This document shows, piece by piece, positions 8,388-33,248 of a stretch of 52,664 nt of DNA (its first letter is position 1; each line of letters opens with the position of its first letter). The DNA lies in assembly GCA_903927005.1 (NCBI GenBank), contig CAIYLH010000012.1:1-52664 (forward strand), written 5' to 3'. A program made the position numbers and the translations under genes. The DNA is from an uncultured Pseudomonadota bacterium (GTDB taxonomy: Bacteria > Pseudomonadota > Gammaproteobacteria > Steroidobacterales > Steroidobacteraceae). The notes under the pieces were generated by a model, which was not told the DNA's origin, ran no database searches, and worked only from the letters and a program-made list of their open reading frames with translations.

Positions 8388-10154
8388 ATGCACACAACCC
8401 GCTTTGCCCAGGACCCGCACTCCCCCCTGCTCGTGCTGATCGGCGCGCTGCTGTTGTCGCTGCCGGCAGTTGCGGGCTATCGCGCGATCACGCCGACCCA
8501 GGCCGATCACACTGTCCTACTGACGGGGCGGGGTCTGAGCGTAGAGCAGGTCGTCGCCGTCGCGCGTTTCGGGGCACGCGTCGCGCTCAGTGCCGAGGCG
8601 GAACGCGAGCAAGCCGACAACTACGGGTTGCTGCTGGAAGCAACCGCCGAGGGCATCCCGGTGTACTGGTTCAACCGCGGCTCCGGCGACCAGCGCGAGA
8701 CGGTGATCTTCGAAGGCGACGCCCTGTCGGCCGCGAACAAGGCCACCGTCGAGCAGGTGCAGTTCGACAGCTTCCGGCAGGCCTCCCGCTACGGCGTCGG
8801 CCCGGAAGTGGAGGACGAGGAGATCGTCCGGGCGATGATGGTCGTGCGCGCCAACACCCTGGTGCACAACGCCCCCAGCCCGCAGCTCGCGCGGATGCTG
8901 CTCGAATTACTGAACAAGCGCATTACCCCGGTCGTGCAGTCGCGCGGCACGGTGGGCGAGGCGGATCTTGCCCAACTGGGCAACGTTGGCGGCACGATGA
9001 TCGGGGTTGGCGAGGCGTACCTCGGGGGCGAGCGCATGGCGGCCGCGGCAGCGCTGCGCCGGGCGGGCCTGCAACCGCTAAAGCCGTTTGCTGCCGACGA
9101 CAACGCCCTGACCAGCAGCAATGCCTACGCCGTCGGCCAGGCGGCGCTGCTGGTCCACGACGCCGAACGGGCGCTGGAGTGGACCGACGTCAGCTACGCG
9201 ATGGCGCTGAACGGTATGAACAGCAGCATCACCCCGCTGAGCCTCGGCGTGCAGCGCGATCGGCCGGATCCGTGGCTCAACTGGCATGCCGCCCGGACGC
9301 TTGCGATGCTGCGTGGCAGCTACCTGTTCGAGGTCGACCCGACCCGCATCATCCAGGATCCCGAAAGCCTGCGAGCCTCGTCGATCCGGCAGGCCTCGGC
9401 CTGGCAGGAATGGGCACTGCTGCGCGACGCGGTCGCGTTCCAGATCAACACCTCGGACCACAACCCCGCGGTTGCCCGCGGCCTGGGACCTGAAGACTCC
9501 TGGGAACTTGCCACGCCGCAGCTGATGCATTTCTACGTCAAAGGCGGGCCGCTGAGCCATGGCCAGCACGGCTACATCCTCTCCAACGCCAACTGGGATC
9601 CCTACCCGCTTGCCAACCGGATCGAGAGCTTCACCCTCGCGCTCGCCAACATGGACATCGCGGTGACGCTGCGGATCGAGCGCTTCCGTAACACGTTCTT
9701 CACCGGGGTCGGTGTCGGCGATGTACTGAAGGATTACGTGCGCGACGATGACGGCTACGCCCCGGTCGACCTGCAGCAGGAGATCCAGACGCTGACCAAC
9801 CCGGTGGCGCCCTCCGGCAGCGCCCTCGTCGGCACGGCCGAGGACCTGCAGGCGCAGACGCGGCTGAAGGTGCAGCGCGCCCGCCAGGTGGTCGACCTCA
9901 CGCTGGAACTGCTGGCGTTCGACGTGCTGGAAAACGCCCTGTGGATGGACGTGCGGCACGCGCAGACCCCCGAAAGGCAGTTTGGCTCTGCCCCTACCGC
10001 CGCCTGGCAGGCGCTGCGCCGGCTGGTTGCCCGGCCCACCCCCGCGCGTCTGGGGTCGGACCAGCAACGGACAGTGGCATTCCTGCGGACTGTGGCTGCA
10101 ACCGGCTTTGCGGCCGGCGGACCGGCCCGACCGGACCTGCAGCCAAGCCGATAA
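8388..10154 (+). CDS. Exported aromatic amino acid lyase (HAL/PAL) family protein lacking the MIO triad; ergothionase-like candidate
   Basis: A 588-residue protein of the histidine/phenylalanine ammonia-lyase superfamily. Recognisable family blocks are VYWFNRGSGDQ (residues 92-102, equivalent to VYGINTGFG, with the catalytic-base Tyr93 kept), QINTSDHNP (352-360, equivalent to NSATDNP), IQDPESLR (322-329) and SHGQHG (390-395). The block that normally supplies Ala-Ser-Gly for the MIO cofactor (GSVGASGDLAPL) reads GTVGEADLAQL (187-197), so the triad is gone. Ergothionase, which eliminates trimethylamine from ergothioneine, is a known MIO-less member of this fold. Residues 13-30 form a hydrophobic signal-like segment, weakly charged at its start, suggesting export or anchoring. 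Flanking betaine genes support a trimethylammonium substrate, but a pseudoenzyme is possible. Confidence 0.85.
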   Translation: MHTTRFAQDPHSPLLVLIGALLLSLPAVAGYRAITPTQADHTVLLTGRGLSVEQVVAVARFGARVALSAEAEREQADNYGLLLEATAEGIPVYWFNRGSGDQRETVIFEGDALSAANKATVEQVQFDSFRQASRYGVGPEVEDEEIVRAMMVVRANTLVHNAPSPQLARMLLELLNKRITPVVQSRGTVGEADLAQLGNVGGTMIGVGEAYLGGERMAAAAALRRAGLQPLKPFAADDNALTSSNAYAVGQAALLVHDAERALEWTDVSYAMALNGMNSSITPLSLGVQRDRPDPWLNWHAARTLAMLRGSYLFEVDPTRIIQDPESLRASSIRQASAWQEWALLRDAVAFQINTSDHNPAVARGLGPEDSWELATPQLMHFYVKGGPLSHGQHGYILSNANWDPYPLANRIESFTLALANMDIAVTLRIERFRNTFFTGVGVGDVLKDYVRDDDGYAPVDLQQEIQTLTNPVAPSGSALVGTAEDLQAQTRLKVQRARQVVDLTLELLAFDVLENALWMDVRHAQTPERQFGSAPTAAWQALRRLVARPTPARLGSDQQRTVAFLRTVAATGFAAGGPARPDLQPSR

Positions 10155-18321: not shown

Positions 18322-18413
18322 GAGTCCATCTCCATTGCTAGGCGGCCACGGGCAGATGCCTGGGCCACAGGGGGTCGATGCGCCCCACGACGCCGAAGCG
18401 CCGCGGACGCCCG

Positions 18414-19730
18414 TCAGATCTTGATACCGGTCGCGCGCTCTTGGTCCCGCACGAGTCCCCGGGCCGACCAGAAATAGTGAAACGTGGCCCAGAAGCCGAC
18501 TGGAGCCAGGCACAACATCGCCAGGCGCAGCGAGGGCGCATCGCCAAAACCGTCCGCCGAGAACCAGACACTCAGGCGCCCGATCAGGATCGGCGCAATC
18601 ACGAGGTTGCCGACGTTGGCGACAAACAGCGTCGCAGCGCAGAACATCGCGCGCATCCTCGGCATGGCGAGGTTGTTCAGGATTCCGAAGCACGGGCCGA
18701 TGTAGAAGTAGATCGATGGGATGAAGACCCAGAACAGAGCTTTGGCAACGGGCAGCGAGTGGGTCCAGTAGATGCCGATGGCGGCGAAGGTCGCGACACC
18801 AATGATGGCCCCCATGAACCAGACGATCCGGCGCGGATCGTTGAAGGCAGGCTTGGCGAGCAGCCAGCCGGTCGCGATGGTTGCGAGACTGCCGGCATAG
18901 AGGTGCATGTTGCCGGTGACATCGCCCGCCTGGCCGGCGTCGAGATGGTAGGTGCGCTGCAGGAACGCCGGCGTCCAGTAGATCAGGCCCCAGCCCCACA
19001 ACGCCGTCAGCGCGCTGGCGAGCATGACGTGGACCGCCGAACGCTGCTGCCACAGGAACTTACCCGTCTCCAGCACGCCGGGCGCGGCCTCTTCGGAACT
19101 GTGGTCGAGCTGACCGCGCTTCGGCTCGCGGATCGTCAGATAGACCAGCAGACCCACGACGAGACCGGGAGCACCCAGCACCCAGAAGACCGCGTGCCAG
19201 CCGTATTTGACGGCGATGGCTCCGGCGAACTGGTACGACAACCAGGCCCCGAGCGGCGCGCCGAGCGAGAAGATGGTCAAGGCCATCGGCCGGCGGAATG
19301 CAGGGAAGTAGTCGGACAGGATCGAGTTGGCGCCGGGCGTGCCACCCGCCTCGCCGACCCCGACCCCGATGCGGCTGATCGCGAACTGCAGCGAGGTCGT
19401 CGCCGCGCCGCACAGCATCGTCATCGCCGACCACACGGCCAGCGAGATCGCGACGATGTTGCGACGATTGAATCGGTCGAGAAGATAGGAGAGCGGGAAG
19501 CCGAGGAACACGTAGAACAGCGCGAGCGGCCAGGCCGTCAGGAACGCCACACCCTCGTCAGTGAGGTGCAGGTCGGCCTTGATCGAGTCGAGCACGGTCG
19601 ACACGACATAGCGGTCGGCGATACTTAACGTATAGACGAGCACCATCATGGCCAGGACGTACCAGCGGACGACCGCTGAGGTGGTGTTCTCGACGTCGCT
19701 TGTCTTAAGCGTCGTGGCTGCGCTGCTCAT
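18414..19730 (-). CDS. MFS transporter (Spinster-like)
   Basis: A 438-residue inner-membrane permease with about twelve hydrophobic segments. It shows the major-facilitator loop-2 motif in modified form (GFPLSYLLDRFNRRN) and the helix-4/5 signature SRIGVGVGEAGGTPGANS of the Spinster-like subfamily. I chose ATG 19730 (MSSAATTLKTSD); upstream in-frame codons to 19832 encode an unlikely basic leader. It is the first gene of the MFS-ALDH-dehydratase-GFA operon and probably imports the operon's organic-acid substrate by proton symport. It is divergent from a beta-hydroxyacid dehydrogenase across a gap with a 21-base palindrome. Confidence 0.92.
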   Translation of the reverse strand: MSSAATTLKTSDVENTTSAVVRWYVLAMMVLVYTLSIADRYVVSTVLDSIKADLHLTDEGVAFLTAWPLALFYVFLGFPLSYLLDRFNRRNIVAISLAVWSAMTMLCGAATTSLQFAISRIGVGVGEAGGTPGANSILSDYFPAFRRPMALTIFSLGAPLGAWLSYQFAGAIAVKYGWHAVFWVLGAPGLVVGLLVYLTIREPKRGQLDHSSEEAAPGVLETGKFLWQQRSAVHVMLASALTALWGWGLIYWTPAFLQRTYHLDAGQAGDVTGNMHLYAGSLATIATGWLLAKPAFNDPRRIVWFMGAIIGVATFAAIGIYWTHSLPVAKALFWVFIPSIYFYIGPCFGILNNLAMPRMRAMFCAATLFVANVGNLVIAPILIGRLSVWFSADGFGDAPSLRLAMLCLAPVGFWATFHYFWSARGLVRDQERATGIKI

Positions 19731-23731: not shown

Positions 23732-24313
23732 ATGTCATTCACCGCCAGCTTCCGCCAGATGAAGGATGGGACCCGTGCCGACTACGAAATGCTCGCCGCC
23801 CTCGAGCATGAATACGCGCTCGCACTTCCAGAGCGCATCCTCGCTTCGCTGAAGAAACTGGACGGTGGCCTGCAGGGCTATCCCGTCAGTCGCTACACCC
23901 ACTCGCTGCAGAGCGCGACGCGCGCCCTACGTGATGGCGCAGACGACGAACTCGTCGTCGCAGCCCTGCTGCACGACATCGGCGACGACCTGTCTCCCTA
24001 CAACCACGCGGCGATCGCCGCCGCGATCCTGCGGCCGTACGTCCGTGCCGAGGTGACCTGGATCGTCGAGCAGCACGCCCTGTTCCAGAGCTACTACTAC
24101 GCCCATCATCACGATCGCAGCCGCAACGGCCGCGATCGGTACAAGGACCACCCGTGGTTCGAGGCCTGCGTGAACTTCTGCGAGCGCTGGGATCAGGCCT
24201 CGTTCGATCCTGAGTACCCGACCGAGCCGCTGGAGCGGTTCGAGCCGCTGGTGAGGGCGATCTTCACGCGCCCTGCTCACGATGTGATCTTCGTAGGCCC
24301 GGCCGGCGCGTGA
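23732..24313 (+). CDS. HD-domain protein, possible PhnZ/TmpB-like mixed-valent diiron oxygenase
   Basis: A 193-residue HD-domain protein. Likely metal ligands are His57 (RYTHSLQ), His81-Asp82 (LLHDIGDD), His92 (YNHAA), His115 (VEQHALF) and Asp154 (ERWDQ). This set suits a dinuclear-metal HD fold like PhnZ and TmpB, the oxygenases that cleave hydroxylated aminophosphonates, TmpB giving glycine betaine from a trimethylammonium phosphonate. The PhnZ glutamate expected about seven residues before the first ligand is not at that spot (Tyr50). It follows the GMC oxidoreductase closely and converges on potI. I cannot decide between oxygenase and phosphohydrolase. Confidence 0.8.
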   Translation: MSFTASFRQMKDGTRADYEMLAALEHEYALALPERILASLKKLDGGLQGYPVSRYTHSLQSATRALRDGADDELVVAALLHDIGDDLSPYNHAAIAAAILRPYVRAEVTWIVEQHALFQSYYYAHHHDRSRNGRDRYKDHPWFEACVNFCERWDQASFDPEYPTEPLERFEPLVRAIFTRPAHDVIFVGPAGA

Positions 24314-24321
24314 GCGCTGTC

Positions 24322-24346
24322 GACTCAGCCCGTCGCGAGCTGAGTC
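24322..24346. terminator. Hairpin between convergent HD-domain and potI genes
   Basis: GACTCAGC (24322-24329) and GCTGAGTC (24339-24346) are exact inverted arms around 9 bases. The potI stop codon is inside the left arm. No U-tract follows, so it is a probable but non-canonical transcript end. Confidence 0.5.
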
Positions 24347-25155
24347 TCGGCAAGTCGCTGCCGTTCGCCGCGACGCACGATGTAAGCCGCCGCCAGTACG
24401 CAGGCACCCACCGCAGCAATGATCAGGCTGGCCAGCGCGTTGATGTCGGGGCTGACCCCAAGCTTGACCTTGGAGTAGATGATCATCGGCAACGTGCTCG
24501 AGCGCGGGCCGGACACGAAGCTCGAGATCACCAGATCGTCGAGCGACAACGTGAAGCTCAGCAGCCAGCTGGACAGCAGCGCCGGCGCGATGAGCGGCAG
24601 CGTGACGTCGACAAACGCCTGGAACGGCGTTGCGCCGAGATCCATGGCGGCCTCTTCCAGCGACCGGTCGGCGGTCTGCAGCCGCGACTGCACAGTCACC
24701 GTGACGTAGGCGGTACAGAACGCGACGTGCGCGAGCACCACGGTGGTGATGCCGCGTGTCGGCCAGCCGATCAGCTGCAGCATCGAGACGAACAGCAGCA
24801 GCTGCGTGATGCCGGTGATGATCTCGGGCATCACCAGCGGCGCGTTCACCATGCCGGTCAGCAGCAAGCGGCCGCGAAACTTCGTAAACCGCACCAGCGC
24901 TACAGCCGCGAGCGTACCCAGCAGCAGCGCACCGGTCGAGGAGAGCGCGGCGATTTCCAGCGACAGGCGCGCGGCGTTGAGGATCTGCCGGTTCTGCAGC
25001 AGCTCGGTGTACCAGTGCGTCGAGAACCCGCCCCAGACACTGGCCATCGCCGAGGCGTTGAACGAGTAGCCGATCAGTACCGCCATCGGCAGGTACAGGA
25101 ACGCTATCCCGAGGCAGAGGAACGAGATCAGCAGTGGTGAAGCGCGGTTTTCCAT
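24325..25155 (-). CDS. potI: ABC transporter permease, PotI/PotC type
   Basis: A 276-residue inner-membrane permease of a polyamine/opine/betaine-type ABC importer. It has about six hydrophobic segments and the cytoplasmic EAA loop LEEAAMDLGATPFQAF, which docks on the ATPase. Its start overlaps the potH stop in a TGATG junction (one shared base), a sign of coupled translation. The cognate ATPase is probably the PotA encoded at 37739-38899. No periplasmic binding protein is encoded in the window, so the substrate is not fixed; quaternary amines are likely given the neighbours. Confidence 0.93.
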   Translation of the reverse strand: MENRASPLLISFLCLGIAFLYLPMAVLIGYSFNASAMASVWGGFSTHWYTELLQNRQILNAARLSLEIAALSSTGALLLGTLAAVALVRFTKFRGRLLLTGMVNAPLVMPEIITGITQLLLFVSMLQLIGWPTRGITTVVLAHVAFCTAYVTVTVQSRLQTADRSLEEAAMDLGATPFQAFVDVTLPLIAPALLSSWLLSFTLSLDDLVISSFVSGPRSSTLPMIIYSKVKLGVSPDINALASLIIAAVGACVLAAAYIVRRGERQRLAETQLATG

Positions 25156-26081
25156 CAGCCGTGCTCGAGCTGGCCGACACGAAAGTGCTGGTGCACTGCG
25201 ATTGGCCCGACCAGCAGCACCAGGAACGCAATCGAGACCGCGGCGGCCACCGGCCAGTCGTGGTTGGCGAAGAACTCATCCCACAGCACGCGGCCGATCA
25301 TCAGATTGTCCGGCCCGCCGAGCAGCGCCGGGATCACATACTCACCAATCGCCGGAATAAACACGAGCATGGAGCCTGCGACCACACCGGGCATCGACAG
25401 TGGCAGCGTCACATCGATGAAAGCGCGCCACGGCCGGCTGCCCAGGTCGGAAGCGGCCTCGAGCAGCGTGTGATCGAGCTTCTCCAGCGTCGCGTACAGC
25501 GGCAGCACCATGAACGGCAGGTAGGAATAGACGATGCCCAGGTACACGGCAAAGGTCGTGCGCATGATCTTCAGCGGCTCGTGGATCACGCCCAGCCACA
25601 TCAGCGCAGTGTTCAGCAGGCCATTGTCGCGAATGATGCCCTCCAGGGCATAGACTCGCAGCAGGAAAGACGTCCAGAACGGCAGAATGATCACCAGCAT
25701 CAGGATGCTCTGGGTAGCCTTCGACGAACGGGCCATGGCATAGGCCATCGGATAGCCGATCAGTAGGCACAGCAGGGTCGAGAAGAAGGCGGTCTTGATC
25801 GAGTAGAGATAGGAAACGACGTAGACTTCGTCGGTCAGCAGGTACTTGTAGTTAGCCAGGCTGAAGACGAGGTGCAGCTTGTGATCCGGCGTCACCGAAA
25901 AAACATTACTGAACGGCGGGATCCGCAGGGCGGCCTCGGCGAAGCTGATTTTCAGCGCGAAGCCAAACGGGATCAGGAAGAAAACGAACAGGAACACCAG
26001 CGGCGGCAATATGATCAGCCACCGACCATGCCGTTCCACGAACCCTCGCAGGGATCCGTGCTGCCGATGCATTTTTTTCAT
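25155..26081 (-). CDS. potH: ABC transporter permease, PotH/PotB type
   Basis: A 308-residue inner-membrane permease, first gene of the potH-potI pair. The N-terminal membrane helix LIILPPLVFLFVFFLIPFG and EAA loop LLEAASDLGSRPWRAF are typical, as is the large loop between the first two helices. I chose the ATG at 26081 (MKKMHRQ; a second ATG is at 26072). The open frame runs to 26840, but that part is antisense to the TetR-Rieske gene. The promoter is shared with that regulator in a 122-base divergent gap holding two palindromes. Confidence 0.92.
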   Translation of the reverse strand: MKKMHRQHGSLRGFVERHGRWLIILPPLVFLFVFFLIPFGFALKISFAEAALRIPPFSNVFSVTPDHKLHLVFSLANYKYLLTDEVYVVSYLYSIKTAFFSTLLCLLIGYPMAYAMARSSKATQSILMLVIILPFWTSFLLRVYALEGIIRDNGLLNTALMWLGVIHEPLKIMRTTFAVYLGIVYSYLPFMVLPLYATLEKLDHTLLEAASDLGSRPWRAFIDVTLPLSMPGVVAGSMLVFIPAIGEYVIPALLGGPDNLMIGRVLWDEFFANHDWPVAAAVSIAFLVLLVGPIAVHQHFRVGQLEHG

Positions 26082-26135
26082 CGTTGCCGTTGCCGCCACG
26101 CGCCCGTCCCCCTCGGTTCGCTGATGTCGCTGTGC

Positions 26136-26150
26136 CGTGCAGTCTGCACG
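26136..26150. promoter_or_regulatory. Palindrome, candidate operator of the TetR-Rieske regulator
   Basis: CGTGCAG (26136-26142), one central T, CTGCACG (26144-26150): exact 7-base arms. The 15-base length and location between potH and the divergent tetR-type gene fit a TetR-family operator. Confidence 0.5.
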
Positions 26151-26178
26151 ACCGCCCAGCGCTCGGGAAGGGAGCGGC

Positions 26179-26190
26179 CGCTCGCGAGCG
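26179..26190. promoter_or_regulatory. Second palindrome near the TetR-Rieske start
   Basis: CGCTCGCGAGCG is a perfect 12-base palindrome ending 13 bases before the regulator's ATG. A repressor bound here would block transcription or initiation. Its high G+C makes chance occurrence more likely than for the other site. Confidence 0.35.
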
Positions 26191-26203
26191 TTAAGGCCAT
26201 CGC

Positions 26204-27754
26204 ATGACCACGCCGCGCCGCCCCAAGGGACAGCCCGATACGCCGAGCGCACCGCGGGCGTCGCGGGCACTCCAGCGCCAGCGACTGATCGACGCCTGTA
26301 TCTCGGCGCTGCACGTCCACGGGCCATCGAAGACCACGGTCGAGAAAGTGGTCGCAATCGCCGGCATGTCACCCGGCATCGTGCGCTTCTACTTCGACTC
26401 CAAGGACGCGATGCTGGTCGCGTCGCTTGAGTTCCTGGCGGCAGAGTTCGAGTCGCGGCTGCTCGAGCCGGTGGCGGCACTGGCGCGCGACCCGGTCGAA
26501 GCGCTGGAGCAGCTGGTCGAGCTGTACCTCGGCCCCGAGCTTGCCAGTGCACGCAAGGTGTCGGTCTGGTACTCGTTCTGGGGCGAGGCCAGCTCGCGGC
26601 AGGAGTACTTCGACATCTGCGGCACGCGCGACAGCAAGTTCGAATCGCTGGTGCGCGACCTGGTGGCAACGCTGATCGAGCGCGACGCCCTGCCCCACCT
26701 GGACGCGGACGCGGTGGCGCTGGGTCTGATCGGCGTGCTCGAGATGCTTTGGCAGGGATTTGCCTTCCAGACCGAATCCACCATCGATCGCGCCACGGCG
26801 CGACGTCGGGCGATGGCCTACCTGCGATCGGTGTTCCCAAGCTCCTTCACCCGCCGCCGCGGCAGCGCCATCGGCGGGCCGTTGCCGGCAAGCGCCTACC
26901 GGACCGCCGCGCAGCTAGGCGCGGAACTGGAGGCGCTGTTCCGCGGCGCGTGGCAGTTCGCCGGACTCAGCAGCGAGCTGGCCACTGCCGGCGACTACGT
27001 GACGCTCGACGGGCCGGTGGAAAGGGCACTGGTCGTACGTGGCCATGAGGGTGTCCTGCGGGCATTCGCCAACACCTGCCGACACCGCCCCCACCCGCTC
27101 GCGCCTGCCCTATCGGGGCATCTGGACGGCGCCATCGGCTGCGCACTGCACAACCTGGGCTACGAGCTCAGCGGCGAGCCCCGGGGGGCCACCGCCGGCG
27201 GCCCGCTGGAGTCGCTGCAGCTGGCCGTCGTCGACGGCCTGCTGTGGGTCCGCGCCGGCACGCCGATGCCCGCTCCGCAGGCACTGGCCACCGCCCACGC
27301 CGAGGTCAGCTCGCTCGGCACCCCGTCGCGGACGGAAATCGTGGTCGCGGCTGACTGGAAGGTCCTCGTCGAACACTGGCTGGAGCGACCGGCAAGCCCC
27401 AGCCCGACCGGCGCCGAGTTCGAGGCCAGCGGGCAGACGTGCAGCAGCTTCGTGGCGCCCCACCAGTTACTCGTATCCGGACCGGATGGCCTGTTGGTAC
27501 TGCAGGCCGTCCCAGCGGCCGCCGGCCGCACCCGCCTGCGTATCCACGACTTCCCCCGCCACGCCGCCGGGGCGACGAGCGCGTCGCGTCCACCGCTGGC
27601 AGCGGAAGTCGCACTCGCCGAGGCCGTGCAACGCGGCATAGAATCCCCCGGCTACGTGCCCGAGGTGCTGGCAGCACCTCCCCCGGCACTGGCCGATTTC
27701 CGACGCTCGATCGCCCGACTACTGCCGGGTGGCAGCCGCAATTCTGGAGACTGA
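26204..27754 (+). CDS. BetI-like TetR regulator fused to a degenerate Rieske oxygenase domain
   Basis: A 516-residue fusion. Residues 20-212 form a TetR protein resembling BetI: HTH TTVEKVVAIAGMSPGIVRFYF (44-64, written in part), a VWYSFWGEAS helix and a final GLIGVLEMLWQGF helix. Residues 234-515 match a Rieske oxygenase alpha subunit, closest to the enzyme at 30469-31623: GDYVTLD, VLRAFANTCRHR and C-terminal VQRGIESPGYVP against its VQRGLESPSYTP. The [2Fe-2S] ligands are all present (Cys292, His294, Cys313, His316). The mononuclear-iron histidines of the enzyme (YHVPIGH) are replaced by PASPSPTG after ADWKVLVEHWLE. The likely role is ligand or redox sensing rather than catalysis. AAGG precedes the ATG. 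It ends 2 bases before the ALDH ATG. Function is inference; the fusion is seen directly. Confidence 0.9.
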   Translation: MTTPRRPKGQPDTPSAPRASRALQRQRLIDACISALHVHGPSKTTVEKVVAIAGMSPGIVRFYFDSKDAMLVASLEFLAAEFESRLLEPVAALARDPVEALEQLVELYLGPELASARKVSVWYSFWGEASSRQEYFDICGTRDSKFESLVRDLVATLIERDALPHLDADAVALGLIGVLEMLWQGFAFQTESTIDRATARRRAMAYLRSVFPSSFTRRRGSAIGGPLPASAYRTAAQLGAELEALFRGAWQFAGLSSELATAGDYVTLDGPVERALVVRGHEGVLRAFANTCRHRPHPLAPALSGHLDGAIGCALHNLGYELSGEPRGATAGGPLESLQLAVVDGLLWVRAGTPMPAPQALATAHAEVSSLGTPSRTEIVVAADWKVLVEHWLERPASPSPTGAEFEASGQTCSSFVAPHQLLVSGPDGLLVLQAVPAAAGRTRLRIHDFPRHAAGATSASRPPLAAEVALAEAVQRGIESPGYVPEVLAAPPPALADFRRSIARLLPGGSRNSGD

Positions 27755-27756
27755 CC

Positions 27757-29253
27757 ATGACGAACACACTCAGCACCCGTGACTGGCACGAGCGCGCAGG
27801 CGCCCTGCGCTACGCCACCGGACACTTCATCGATGGCGGCCACGAAGAGGGTCGCCCCGGGGAGTCCTTCGTCGTCACCAACCCCGCCACGGGCGAGCCG
27901 CTGTGCGAGGTCGCCGCCGGCACCGCCGCGGATATCGATCGTGCCGTCGCCTCAGGCCGGCGCGCGTTCAAGAGCGGCGTCTGGCGGCGGATGGCGCCGC
28001 GCGACCGCATGGCGGTACTGACCCGCTTCGCAGGCCTGCTCACCTCGAACGCCGAGCGCCTTGCGCTGCTCGACACGCTGACGATGGGCAAGCCGATCAG
28101 CGATATGCTGAACATCGACGTGCCGTCGGCGGCGCAGACCTTCACCTACTTCGCCGAACTGATCGACAAGATCGACGGCGCCGTGACCTCGACCGCCTCC
28201 GACGCGTTCCACTACATCACGCGCGAGCCGCTGGGCGTCGTCGGCTGCATCGTGCCGTGGAACTATCCGCTGCTGATGGCCTCCTGGAAGGTCGCCCCGG
28301 CGCTCGCCGCCGGCAACTCGGTCGTGCTCAAGCCCGCCGAACAGTCGCCGCTATCCGCGCTGGTGATGGCGGAACTGTTCATCGAGGCGGGCGGCCCGCC
28401 GGGCGTGTTCAATGTCGTCAACGGCATGGGCGAAGCGGTAGGCTCAGCGCTCGCGCTGCACATGGACGTCAACAAGATCGCCTTCACCGGCTCGACGGAA
28501 GTCGGCAAGCTGATGCTGGTCTACGCCGGTCAGTCGAACATGAAGCGCGTGAGCCTCGAGTGCGGCGGCAAGTCGCCGCAGATCTTCCTGTCGGATCTGG
28601 GCGATATCGACCGCGCCGTGACCTACGCGATCAACGGCATCTTCGGCAACATGGGCGAGGTCTGCAACGCCGGCTCGCGCCTGCCGCTCGACCGGCCGAT
28701 CGCCGACGAGTTCATCGCCCGCTTCGTCGAACGCGGCCGCGATGCCTACAAGGCCGGCGATCCGCTGGATCCGACCACCAACCTCGGCCCGCTGGTCACC
28801 GGCTCGCATTGCTCGCGGGTGGTGAGCTACATCGAATCGGCCAAGCGCGAAGGCGCAAAGCTCGAGTTTGGCGGCAACCGTCCGGACCGGGCGGGCAGCT
28901 ACGTCAACCCGACGCTGTTCTCAGGCGTGAACCCCAGCATGACCATCGCGCGCGAAGAGATCTTCGGGCCAGTCGCCGCCGCCATCGTGGTCGACGGCAT
29001 CGATCAGGCCTTGAACATCGCCAATGACTCGATCTACGGACTGGCCGCATCCGTCTGGACGCGCGACCTGAACACGGCGCACAAGGCCGTGCGCGAGCTC
29101 GAAGCCGGCGTCATCTGGGTCAACTGCTTCGACCACGGTGACATGACGCAGCCGTTCGGCGGCTACAAGCAGTCGGGCCAGGGCCGCGACAAGTGCCTGG
29201 AAAGCCTGCTCGGCTACATGCAGACCAAGTCCGCCTGGATCCATCTGGGCTGA
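27757..29253 (+). CDS. Aldehyde dehydrogenase, PuuC/KauB-like (amino- or betaine-aldehyde)
   Basis: A 498-residue NAD(P)-dependent aldehyde dehydrogenase. It has PWNYPLLMASWKVAPALAAG, the catalytic glutamate in LECGGKSPQI and the nucleophile in GEVCNAGSR near residue 302, plus the C-terminal GGYKQSGQGRDK. The pattern is closest to enzymes for omega-amino or guanidino aldehydes (PuuC, KauB) and to betaine/trimethylaminobutyraldehyde dehydrogenases. ATG 27757 has TGGAGA upstream and begins 2 bases after the TetR-Rieske stop, so the regulator and this enzyme are translationally coupled. It could oxidise the aldehyde made by the AruI-like decarboxylase at 42712-44313, but that is inference. Confidence 0.9.
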   Translation: MTNTLSTRDWHERAGALRYATGHFIDGGHEEGRPGESFVVTNPATGEPLCEVAAGTAADIDRAVASGRRAFKSGVWRRMAPRDRMAVLTRFAGLLTSNAERLALLDTLTMGKPISDMLNIDVPSAAQTFTYFAELIDKIDGAVTSTASDAFHYITREPLGVVGCIVPWNYPLLMASWKVAPALAAGNSVVLKPAEQSPLSALVMAELFIEAGGPPGVFNVVNGMGEAVGSALALHMDVNKIAFTGSTEVGKLMLVYAGQSNMKRVSLECGGKSPQIFLSDLGDIDRAVTYAINGIFGNMGEVCNAGSRLPLDRPIADEFIARFVERGRDAYKAGDPLDPTTNLGPLVTGSHCSRVVSYIESAKREGAKLEFGGNRPDRAGSYVNPTLFSGVNPSMTIAREEIFGPVAAAIVVDGIDQALNIANDSIYGLAASVWTRDLNTAHKAVRELEAGVIWVNCFDHGDMTQPFGGYKQSGQGRDKCLESLLGYMQTKSAWIHLG

Positions 29254-30468: not shown

Positions 30469-31623
30469 TCAGGCGAAGCGATCCGGGGCCTGCGGCAGGC
30501 GGACCTCCGGAATCCGGCTCTCGAGCAGATCGTGAAACTCGGTCATCCAGGTCTCGATCGCCGACAACGGTCCCGGCGTGTAGCTCGGCGACTCAAGTCC
30601 GCGCTGCACCCGCGCGCACAGCCAACGGTCCTCCCCGTTGACCTGGGCATTGATGCGCGTACCCAGCGCCCGCAACACCCGCATCTCACGCCTGTCATCC
30701 GGGTGGCCGAAAATCGCATAACGGATCCGGCACTTGCCCGGCCCTCGCGGCAACACCTGGAAGAAGTCGATCTGCTCGGGAAAGATGTCTATGCCGAGAT
30801 TAGGCAAGGCGCTGTAGAAGCGCCAGCAGCGCCTCTCCGGCTCAGGCAGGTCGGTGACGACGCGACCCACCAGCCCCTGGTAGAAGCGCTCGCTCCAGCG
30901 CGCCGAGGGCTGCTCTTTCAGCCAGCTCGTGCCGCGTGCGATACCGGGGCTGCCCTTCTGGTCGTCGTAGTCGGGTGTGAACATCCGGTTCAGGCCCGGA
31001 TGGCCGATCGGGACGTGATAGGACTCGAGGTAGTTGTCCATCGCGACCTTCCAATCGACATCCCAGTCCTCATAGCCGACCGGCCCCAGCGGCTGCATCT
31101 CCTCGATCCGGTAGGGCGCGAGCTCCTCCAGGAATGGCTGCCAGCGCTCCGCCAGCGGCGGTGGGTCGTCGGCAAGACAGACAAATACCAGCCCGAACAT
31201 CACCTCCACCCGCACCGGCTTGAGCGAGTGCTCGGCCCGGTCAAGGCCTGGGAAGCTGTCGCGGCTGGGCACGCCGACCAGCGCGCCTTCGTAGCTGTAG
31301 CTCCAGCCGTGGTAGGGACAGACGATCGCGCCAGGGCAGTGGCCGGCGTGATCCAGGATCCGCGCACCGCGATGCCGGCAGACGTTGTGGAATGCACGCA
31401 GCACCCGCTCGCGGTCGCGCAGCACGACGATGCTGTCCGGGCCCATGTCAAAGGTCACATAGTCGCCGGGGTTCGGCAGCGAGTTCACGTGGGTCGCGAT
31501 CTGCCAGCTCGGCCGCAGGATCCGTTCCAGCTCCAGGCGGGTCATGTCCGGGTGGTTATAGACCCAGGCGGGCAACGCGCGGCGGGGTAACGAGGCGGCG
31601 CCCGGCGGCAGGACATTGACCAT
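30469..31623 (-). CDS. Rieske non-heme iron oxygenase alpha subunit, second paralogue
   Basis: A 384-residue Rieske oxygenase. Cluster ligands are Cys82, His84 (NVCRHRG) and Cys102, His105 (CPYHGW); the iron site is VDWKVAMDNYLESYHVPIGH with His203 and His208. The C-terminal VQRGLESPSYTPGPLS is shared with the degenerate domain of the TetR fusion at 26204-27754, making this the probable parent type of that sensor. I chose ATG 31623 (MVNVLPPG), preceded by AAGGGA; an upstream ATG at 31701 would add 26 atypical residues. It is the first gene of the two-gene operon and is divergent from the aminotransferase at 31923. Two alpha subunits in tandem may act on successive substrates or as a mixed oligomer. 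Confidence 0.9.
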   Translation of the reverse strand: MVNVLPPGAASLPRRALPAWVYNHPDMTRLELERILRPSWQIATHVNSLPNPGDYVTFDMGPDSIVVLRDRERVLRAFHNVCRHRGARILDHAGHCPGAIVCPYHGWSYSYEGALVGVPSRDSFPGLDRAEHSLKPVRVEVMFGLVFVCLADDPPPLAERWQPFLEELAPYRIEEMQPLGPVGYEDWDVDWKVAMDNYLESYHVPIGHPGLNRMFTPDYDDQKGSPGIARGTSWLKEQPSARWSERFYQGLVGRVVTDLPEPERRCWRFYSALPNLGIDIFPEQIDFFQVLPRGPGKCRIRYAIFGHPDDRREMRVLRALGTRINAQVNGEDRWLCARVQRGLESPSYTPGPLSAIETWMTEFHDLLESRIPEVRLPQAPDRFA

Positions 31624-31644: not shown

Positions 31645-31658
31645 TATACGGTCATGCA
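31645..31658 (-). promoter_or_regulatory. TATACGGTCATGCA motif near Rieske operon start
   Basis: This 14-base motif matches the reverse complement of the site at 31825-31838 (TATATGGTCATATA) at 11 of 14 positions. It lies 22 bases upstream of the Rieske ATG, a position suited to repression. Confidence 0.35.
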
Positions 31659-31824: not shown

Positions 31825-31838
31825 TATATGACCATATA
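31825..31838. promoter_or_regulatory. TATATGACCATATA palindrome near aminotransferase operon
   Basis: Arms TATATG and CATATA are exact inverted repeats around AC. A degenerate copy lies at 31645-31658 on the Rieske side, so one regulator could control both operons. Confidence 0.45.
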
Positions 31839-31922: not shown

Positions 31923-33248
31923 ATGCCCCGCGACCTGACCAAAAGCAACGCGCACTGGAAGAAAGCGGTCACCAAGCTGCCGCTCGGCGTGGCCTCGAAC
32001 TTCCGTTACTGGGGCGAGGACAAGACGATCTACGTCAAGCAGGGCCGCGGCGCCCGCATCGAGGATCTGGACGGCAATCACTACGTCGACTACCGCCTCG
32101 GCTACGGCCCGGCGATCCTCGGCTACGCCCATCCGGAGGTCGACGCGGCCGCGCGCGAGGGCATGGACGTCGGCGGCGTGTTCGCGCTGAGCACCGAACG
32201 CGAGTACCGCGTCGCCGAACGCATCTCGAAGATGGTCCCGGCCGCCGAACTCGTGCGCTATTCCAACTCCGGCACCGAGGCGGTGATGGCCGGCCTGCGG
32301 CTCGCACGCGCCTACACCGGCAAGGACGACTACATCCTGCTCGAAGGCAGCTACCACGGCCTGTTCGATGCGGCCATGTGGTACACCCCGATGGAGAAGT
32401 GGAGCCAGGTCGGCGAGCCGGAAGTGAAGCCCTACAGCGAGGGCATCCCGCTGGGCGTACGCGGCTTCGCCCACTTCGTACAGGCGAACGACGCCAACCA
32501 GCTCGAAGAGACGTTCAAGCGCAATGCCGGCAAGATCGCCTGCCTGCTGATCGAGCCGATCATGGGCAACTGCCTGGGCATCGCCGCCGAGCCTGAGTAC
32601 CTGAAAGCCGCACGCGAGCTGTGCGACAAGTACGGCGTGCTGCTGTTCATCGACGAGGTCAAGACGGGCTTCCGGGTCGCCCGCGGCGGCGTGCAGGAGC
32701 TGTACGGCATCAAGGCCGACATCTGCACGATGGCCAAGGCCGTCGCCAACGGCTATCCGATCTCCGTGCTCGCTGGCCGCGAGGACATCATGCGCAAGCT
32801 CGGCCGCGGCGTCGCCCACGGCGGCACCTACACCGCGCACTCAGTCTCGATGGCCGCCGCCGAGAAATGCCTCGAGATCCTCGATGAGACCGACGCGCTG
32901 GAGCGCATCGCCGCCTACGGCAAGAAAATGATGGCGGGCATGTCGAAGATACTAACGGCTCGCAGCATCCCGCATAGTTTCGTCGGCCACCCGTCGATGT
33001 GCGGCCTGTACTTCGACGCCGAGCCGCCGCGCAACTACCGCACCTGGAAGAGCAGCGACTACGCGTTCTACGACGCGATGGCGCAGGTACTGCATGACGA
33101 AGGCGTGCTGTGCGAGCCCGATTCGCGCGAGCCGTGGTTCATTTCGGCCGCCCACGACGACAGCTGCCTCGCCGACACGATGCGTGGCTTTGAGATCGCT
33201 GTGGATACGACGCTGAAAAGCCGTGCTGCCGAGAAGGTTCCGGCCTAG
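31923..33248 (+). CDS. Class III PLP aminotransferase (glutamate-1-semialdehyde aminomutase-like)
   Basis: A 441-residue fold-type I, class III aminotransferase with the look of HemL-like proteins. Visible elements are RYSNSGTEAVMAGLRLARAYTG, EGSYHGLFD (the aromatic/His PLP-stacking region), LLFIDEVKTGFR (Asp bound to the PLP pyridine) and the PLP lysine in CTMAKAVANGYP near residue 271. Such proteins outside haem synthesis act as omega-aminotransferases or aminomutases on amino acids and amines. A TGGAGA ribosome-binding site precedes the ATG. It starts an operon with two FAD oxidoreductases, a GcvT-like protein and PotA, so an amine or amino-acid substrate is likely. Confidence 0.9.
   Translation: MPRDLTKSNAHWKKAVTKLPLGVASNFRYWGEDKTIYVKQGRGARIEDLDGNHYVDYRLGYGPAILGYAHPEVDAAAREGMDVGGVFALSTEREYRVAERISKMVPAAELVRYSNSGTEAVMAGLRLARAYTGKDDYILLEGSYHGLFDAAMWYTPMEKWSQVGEPEVKPYSEGIPLGVRGFAHFVQANDANQLEETFKRNAGKIACLLIEPIMGNCLGIAAEPEYLKAARELCDKYGVLLFIDEVKTGFRVARGGVQELYGIKADICTMAKAVANGYPISVLAGREDIMRKLGRGVAHGGTYTAHSVSMAAAEKCLEILDETDALERIAAYGKKMMAGMSKILTARSIPHSFVGHPSMCGLYFDAEPPRNYRTWKSSDYAFYDAMAQVLHDEGVLCEPDSREPWFISAAHDDSCLADTMRGFEIAVDTTLKSRAAEKVPA

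Follow-up and report, generated by a model that had tools for sequence, protein, structure and literature searches.

TetR regulators usually sense small molecules through one helical domain. The window analysed here, a stretch of DNA of 52,664 nucleotides, holds a gene whose product continues beyond such a regulator, in the same reading frame, into a second half that resembles a Rieske oxygenase (Table 1). The locus raises the question of whether this architecture is real, where its second half came from and what it could do for a repressor. The initial annotation had explained the gene as a duplicate of the neighbouring oxygenase, RO2, turned into the sensory domain of a regulator; parts of that account are correct, while origin and sensing were oversimplified and the DNA region named as target was wrong. 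The architecture itself is real, conserved and unusual.

Table 1 Features of the window around the fusion gene
Feature	Position	Strand	Basis
Pair of ABC permeases, oriented divergently from the regulator gene	24325..26060	-	
TetR-(pseudo)Rieske oxygenase fusion protein, 516 aa	26204..27754	+	Stop-free ORF, Pfam, BLASTP, profile-profile comparison
TetR_N DNA-binding domain, residues 28-73	26285..26422	+	Pfam PF00440, E 1.3e-6
TetR_C_6 BetI-type effector/dimer domain, residues 97-211	26492..26836	+	Pfam PF13977, E 3.7e-13
Rieske domain, residues 250-336	26951..27211	+	Pfam PF00355, E 3.8e-9
First metal loop, C292-R-H294-R-P-H297	27077..27094	+	C292 and H297 in 44/44, H294 in 7/44
Second metal loop, C313-x2-H316	27140..27151	+	Both residues in 44/44
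Reduced catalytic domain of the former oxygenase, residues ~345-510, lacking both iron-site His	27236..27733	+	Alignments
Aldehyde dehydrogenase, starting 2 bases after the regulator's stop	27757..29253	+	
RO2, Rieske oxygenase, ligands and iron site intact	30469..31623	-	Nearest solved relatives are quaternary-ammonium demethylases
Second, weaker proposed operator, 2 mismatches, near the RO2 start, 180 bp from the first	31645..31658	.	
Proposed operator, exact TATAYGNNCRTATA (TATATGACCATATA)	31825..31838	.	Cross-genome comparison
Class-III aminotransferase, oriented divergently from RO2 and lying downstream of the proposed operator	31923..33248	+	

The fusion protein, its family and its neighbours

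The fusion gene is a single frame with no internal stop and, as first annotated, it joins a BetI-like TetR regulator to a Rieske domain. TetR_N scores 28.5 bits (Pfam cut-off 24) and TetR_C_6 50.1 bits (cut-off 27), and the Rieske match found in the proposed domain-profile check also lies above its cut-off; Ring_hydroxyl_A has no Pfam match in this protein at E up to 1. The claimed homology of the second half to RO2 was borne out by BLASTP (E 4e-20, 25% identity over 361 columns with 84 gap positions) and by comparison of profile against profile (probability 100, E 1.5e-41).

Structure prediction, which had also been proposed, gave an AlphaFold model with a mean pLDDT of 88.5 and a pTM of 0.60, a value low enough to make the mutual placing of the TetR and oxygenase halves unreliable. 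A second model, of the homologue at locus L055, has a mean pLDDT of 86.9 and an identical layout. Among the best 50 Foldseek rows for the first model, the top solved matches are quaternary-ammonium demethylases (3vca, 4qur and CntA, 6y8j), with a TM-score by query of about 0.48 and identities of 14-21%. The pocket region of the TetR half is intact and contains the invariant aromatics W122, Y123, F125, W126, W183 and F188. Its best NCBIfam model is betaine_BetI (TIGR03384, residues 22-209), at 83.3 bits and so below the equivalog cut-off of 201.3.

Relatives come mostly from metagenome assemblies. Of 296 genomes searched from the order, 81 had matches, in many cases limited to the TetR half, and the contig scan retained 80 of 272 loci as encoding a relative. 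The distinct fused proteins number 49: 44 of the window's kind, here called A-type, three in which the Rieske part is damaged (L078, L080 and L081) and two called B-type (L036 and L037). Counts on 44 exclude the latter five and include four short members (L041, L058, L063 and L075). In L078 the first metal loop is gone and the second Cys has become Y. In L041 an in-frame TAG (8931-8933) lies just after the Rieske part with the frame open beyond it, which is either a nonsense change or an assembly error. Pfam found TetR_C_6 and Rieske in all 37 A-type proteins scanned, TetR_N in 36 and Ring_hydroxyl_A, at E 0.001, in 14. No place in the plasmid records covers 80% of the window protein, and none covers 80% of a B-type protein.

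A-type genes have so far always been found beside genes of a quaternary-ammonium-type pathway. Of 51 related loci, 45 have an ABC permease gene divergent from the regulator and five have one on the same strand, while one has none. RO2 is present in 40 of these loci, on the strand opposite to the regulator in 35, and is divergent from the aminotransferase gene in 38; RO1 occurs in 11. RO2 is missing from 11 loci, several of which are cut short, but L073 and L079 lack it despite their length. Two further genes of the window were noted. The HD-domain protein at 23732-24313 has short PhnZ/TmpB-like matches (E 7.6e-6 to 3.9e-5), and the 416-aa ORF at 18378-19628, with no Pfam match at E 0.001, has relatives (34-54% identity) at the corresponding position of several related loci.

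Metal loops and origin of the oxygenase half

All Rieske ligands (C292, H294, C313 and H316, in the pattern CxH...CxxH) are present in the window protein, so the annotated retention of four [2Fe-2S] ligands holds for this protein; it does not hold for the A-type family, in which the canonical first His, H294, occurs only here and in L038, L052, L071, L072, L073 and L028. What is invariant in all 44 members is the set C292, H297, C313 and H316, accompanied by P296 in 43, whereas the remaining His and Cys of the oxygenase half are conserved in 1 to 18 members. A normal Rieske cluster is unsupported as a family trait, and the proposed redox sensing through such a cluster is likewise unsupported, since the first His is absent from 37 of 44.

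In other oxygenases the frequencies are reversed, with His at the H294 place in 137 of 138 and at the H297 place in 13 of 138 (12 of them independent, as one row belongs to a B-type fusion). In these 13, as in eight of nine intact fusions, the second kind of His stands beside a normal His pair. It follows that the His at +5 need not be a ligand, and that it predates the loss of the first His; in the A-type proteins it may have replaced that His as a ligand, though not necessarily so. A Rieske cluster reportedly tolerates mutations of its His ligands, a lead that we take from the title of one study.

The loss of both His of the mononuclear iron site, also part of the initial reading, is confirmed in the window protein, which has no H-x4-H after the DWK motif and an E as the aligned acid. 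No H-x4-H is found within 35 residues after DWK in 38 of the 41 A-type members that extend that far; in the three exceptions it is two residues out of register (L071 and L072) or elsewhere (L027). L071 and L072 combine the out-of-register motif with the first Rieske His and are near-basal among A-type proteins. Together with L073, which likewise keeps H294, they are placed near the A-type base in one TetR tree, and the three may be intermediates.

The B-type proteins, in which a TetR is joined to a full-length Rieske oxygenase, bear directly on the order of events. Nine are known from nine genomes (L036/L168, L037, L118, L119, L120 and L169-L172). The class sample yielded them in 3 of 369 genomes and the family sample in 5 of 217 (both searched with an E limit of 1e-60), and the order sample in G077. 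In the phylum sample the B-type query had matches in 22 of 398 genomes, and none of the matches listed extends to the TetR half. The pattern CxH...CxxH and the two iron-site His are present in all nine proteins and the carboxylate motif in eight (not L120), and TetR_N, TetR_C_6, Rieske and Ring_hydroxyl_A all exceed their Pfam cut-offs in the four scanned. In L118 and L119 the fusion gene directly adjoins a second, separate oxygenase gene. At L158 (1-2100, minus strand) a TetR gene and a motif-intact oxygenase gene are separate and overlap by ATGA, an arrangement that looks like the one expected before a fusion.

In a tree of TetR halves, from which L184, L162 and L035 were left out in addition to the seven distant TetRs dropped from an earlier tree, A-type, B-type and L158 lie together on one side of a branch (100/98) against 16 other TetRs. 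The same branch (100/99) was recovered when two rhizobial TetRs were added; a grouping of A-type and B-type strictly alone, without L158, is not rejected (p-AU 0.235). In the tree of Rieske halves, which has long branches and several rows of odd composition and uses 12 of 41 A-type rows after removal of 12 fast-changing ones, the A-type halves form one clade (100/100) within the group of RO2 and B-type and outside that of RO1. They stand, weakly (46/49), beside eight of the nine B-type rows, with L120 placed elsewhere.

These trees do not favour the proposed origin by duplication of the parent enzyme. RO2 is disfavoured as that parent, as a clade of A-type Rieske halves with RO2 is 18.5 log units worse (p-AU 0.054). 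Because nine relatives retain intact ligands and their TetR halves group with those of the A-type proteins, fusion probably preceded disarming, which is likelier than a neighbour's duplicate having become a sensor.

A palindrome between RO2 and the aminotransferase gene

The initial annotation placed the DNA target of the regulator in its own upstream region (26082-26203), where a shared palindrome could not be found. In 45 such regions the best matches to the palindrome described below differ from it at 3 to 7 positions, just as they do in shuffled copies, and there is no other conspicuous inverted repeat in common, so an operator there was rejected. A conserved palindrome lies instead in the promoter region between RO2 and the aminotransferase gene. 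In 39 such regions (the window and 38 loci), TATAYGNNCRTATA is found exactly in 22, with at most one mismatch in 35 and with at most two in all 39, a count that is not independent because the pattern was derived from those same regions. The weight of the palindrome lies in its exact symmetry and in the contrast with the rest of the loci: 62 sites with at most two mismatches fall in the 9,156 bp of these regions and 20 in the other 642,938 bp, divided by mismatch (0, 1, 2) into 24, 25 and 13 against 2, 2 and 16.

Two sites lie 29-32 bp apart in 14 regions, and 178-182 bp apart, one by each gene start, in the window, L041, L043, L044 and L060. Within the window alone the two matches are unremarkable, being equalled in 13 of 100 shuffles. 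In the window's own genome the five places with at most one mismatch equal the control, and the only exact match is the one at 31825-31838; the weight of the palindrome rests accordingly on the comparison between genomes.

Five loci whose regulator no longer has an oxygenase half (L082 and L084-L087) keep the palindrome, and no copy with at most two mismatches was found in the clusters of Shinella and Rhizobium sp. SL42, which have the same kinds of genes and another TetR. Given this retention with domain-less regulators and absence with a different TetR, the A-type protein likely binds the palindrome, although the site could belong to another regulator, which would count against the role proposed below. 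The two rhizobial clusters (L203 and L204) are catabolic clusters of similar kind carried on plasmids, with a plain TetR and generic annotation only.

Possible roles of the appended half

We consider it reasonably probable, from sequence comparison and structural models, that the A-type protein is a repressor of the quaternary-ammonium cluster in which a catalytically dead, probably metal-binding oxygenase module acts as an auxiliary sensor. The TetR half would bind the palindrome and block RO2 and the aminotransferase operon, and a pathway compound in the ordinary TetR pocket would release it. By comparison with its relatives, the C-terminal half appears to stem from a whole oxygenase that was fused while ready for catalysis and then lost its iron site and much of its substrate domain. 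The remaining Rieske-fold module, with its invariant C-x4-H...C-x2-H, probably holds a metal or a [2Fe-2S] cluster, and could set the strength of the repressor according to iron, oxygen or redox state. Such a module would be helpful and not essential, as several lineages have dropped it.

That same loss is an argument for a different explanation, in which the oxygenase half is a decaying leftover with no regulatory role, the TetR works alone and the conserved residues reflect folding or solubility. Stand-alone A-type TetRs nest among the fused members in the TetR tree, which indicates that the oxygenase half was lost repeatedly, and a clade restricted to the 25 fused rows is rejected (p-AU 0.004, for a grouping already visible in an earlier tree before testing). 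The stages of loss differ. L031/L080 retain a remnant of the beginning of the Rieske domain, L032/L081 and L083 a Rieske-like piece that lacks the metal loops, and L079 the last helix alone, while the tails of L033 and L084-L087 contain nothing that can be recognised; L041, a related copy, ends after the Rieske part. The gene cluster and the palindrome persist through such losses, and the same proposed operator is found where the domain is gone.

Substitution rates can be read either way. In 12 close pairs (Nei-Gojobori), dN/dS ranges over 0.10-0.38 in the Rieske part and 0.22-0.45 in the tail, two to several times the value of 0.04-0.18 for TetR (11 pairs where computable), as a leftover would predict; it nevertheless stays well under 1 in all 12 pairs, and by this measure the appended half is constrained, though less than TetR. 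The four Cys/His that are invariant amid near-total drift around them, and the retention of the domain by most members, also speak against mere decay, and we regard the leftover explanation as rather unlikely.

A disarmed half that binds a quaternary amine in its former active site and signals to the TetR half, close to the betaine sensing first proposed, would suit both the nearest folds, which are those of quaternary-ammonium demethylases, and the adjacent genes, which resemble such a pathway. The substrate part is, however, the most eroded of the protein: it is the most shortened, by big deletions, and the fastest changing (the tail values above), and Ring_hydroxyl_A still matches in only 14 of the 37 members scanned. 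The intact TetR pocket, rich in invariant aromatics, moreover makes a second pocket unneeded, and we think a sensor of this kind improbable.

Still less probable, by analogy with the Rieske-type ferredoxin ThnA3 of tetralin regulation, is a redox reporter fed by the reductase of RO2, through which the repressor would sense oxygenase turnover. The ThnA3 precedent (PMC3771892) and the Rieske fold with all four canonical ligands in the window protein fit this idea, but the first His is absent from most relatives, and no reductase was noticed near the gene in an unsystematic look. Finally, a sequencing or assembly artefact joining two genes, such as the frameshift that the initial annotation had allowed for, has no supporting point and a negligible probability, being ruled out by 44 distinct homologues that have this architecture and come from many assemblies, with TetR_C_6 and Rieske in every one scanned.

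The auxiliary-sensor reading stands as the one we prefer. More tentatively, and as something possible that we would not yet call probable, the two types may form a new class of one-component regulator: B-type proteins would be trigger enzymes that demethylate and control genes, A-type proteins a dead enzyme turned metal sensor with a rearranged C-x4-H...C-x2-H, and one clade would keep the steps between them. Living relatives appear to display the stages, from separate overlapping genes (L158) through an intact-looking fusion and a dead-enzyme fusion to remnants, which opens the question of how enzymes become sensors to direct test, and the conserved palindrome is a ready target for binding tests. 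In agreement with the initial annotation, no description of a TetR-Rieske regulator was found in the literature searched, which consisted of titles and the openings of abstracts, with most subscription papers outside it. If the Cys/His set holds a cluster, the protein would represent a transcription factor with a Rieske fold, a kind not described in that literature.

Comparison with known systems

The A-type proteins resemble BetI-type repressors in having TetR_N and TetR_C_6 in register, and the window's regulator, as in BetI systems, stands beside choline-dehydrogenase-like, aldehyde dehydrogenase and ABC genes. In contrast to BetI, the window protein is below the BetI cut-off (83 against 201 bits) and carries an oxygenase-derived half of 300 residues. 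The proposed operator here is TATAYGNNCRTATA. Residues 225-510 share fold and sequence with stachydrine demethylase, the carnitine monooxygenase CntA and GbcA, whereas the A-type proteins differ from these demethylases in their lack of a mononuclear iron site, their shortened substrate domain, their added N-terminal TetR and the altered first metal loop of the family. With the B-type proteins they have in common the domain order and the grouping of the TetR halves, although the TetR itself differs (about 35-41% identity) and the B-type keeps the Rieske ligands and the 2-His site.

Two regulatory systems offer partial parallels. In RsrR, of the Rrf2 family, the state of a [2Fe-2S] cluster sets DNA binding (PMC5015018). 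The A-type proteins, in which four invariant Cys/His may hold a cluster, would share this idea; RsrR, however, is not a TetR and has no Rieske oxygenase fold. In the thn system, ThnA3 blocks transcription of the thn genes if the inducer serves poorly as a substrate (PMC3771892), and the likeness lies in a Rieske protein of an oxygenase system that feeds back on transcription; ThnA3 and ThnY are, however, separate proteins that work with a LysR activator, whereas in the A-type proteins the Rieske-derived half and the DNA-binding domain are one chain.
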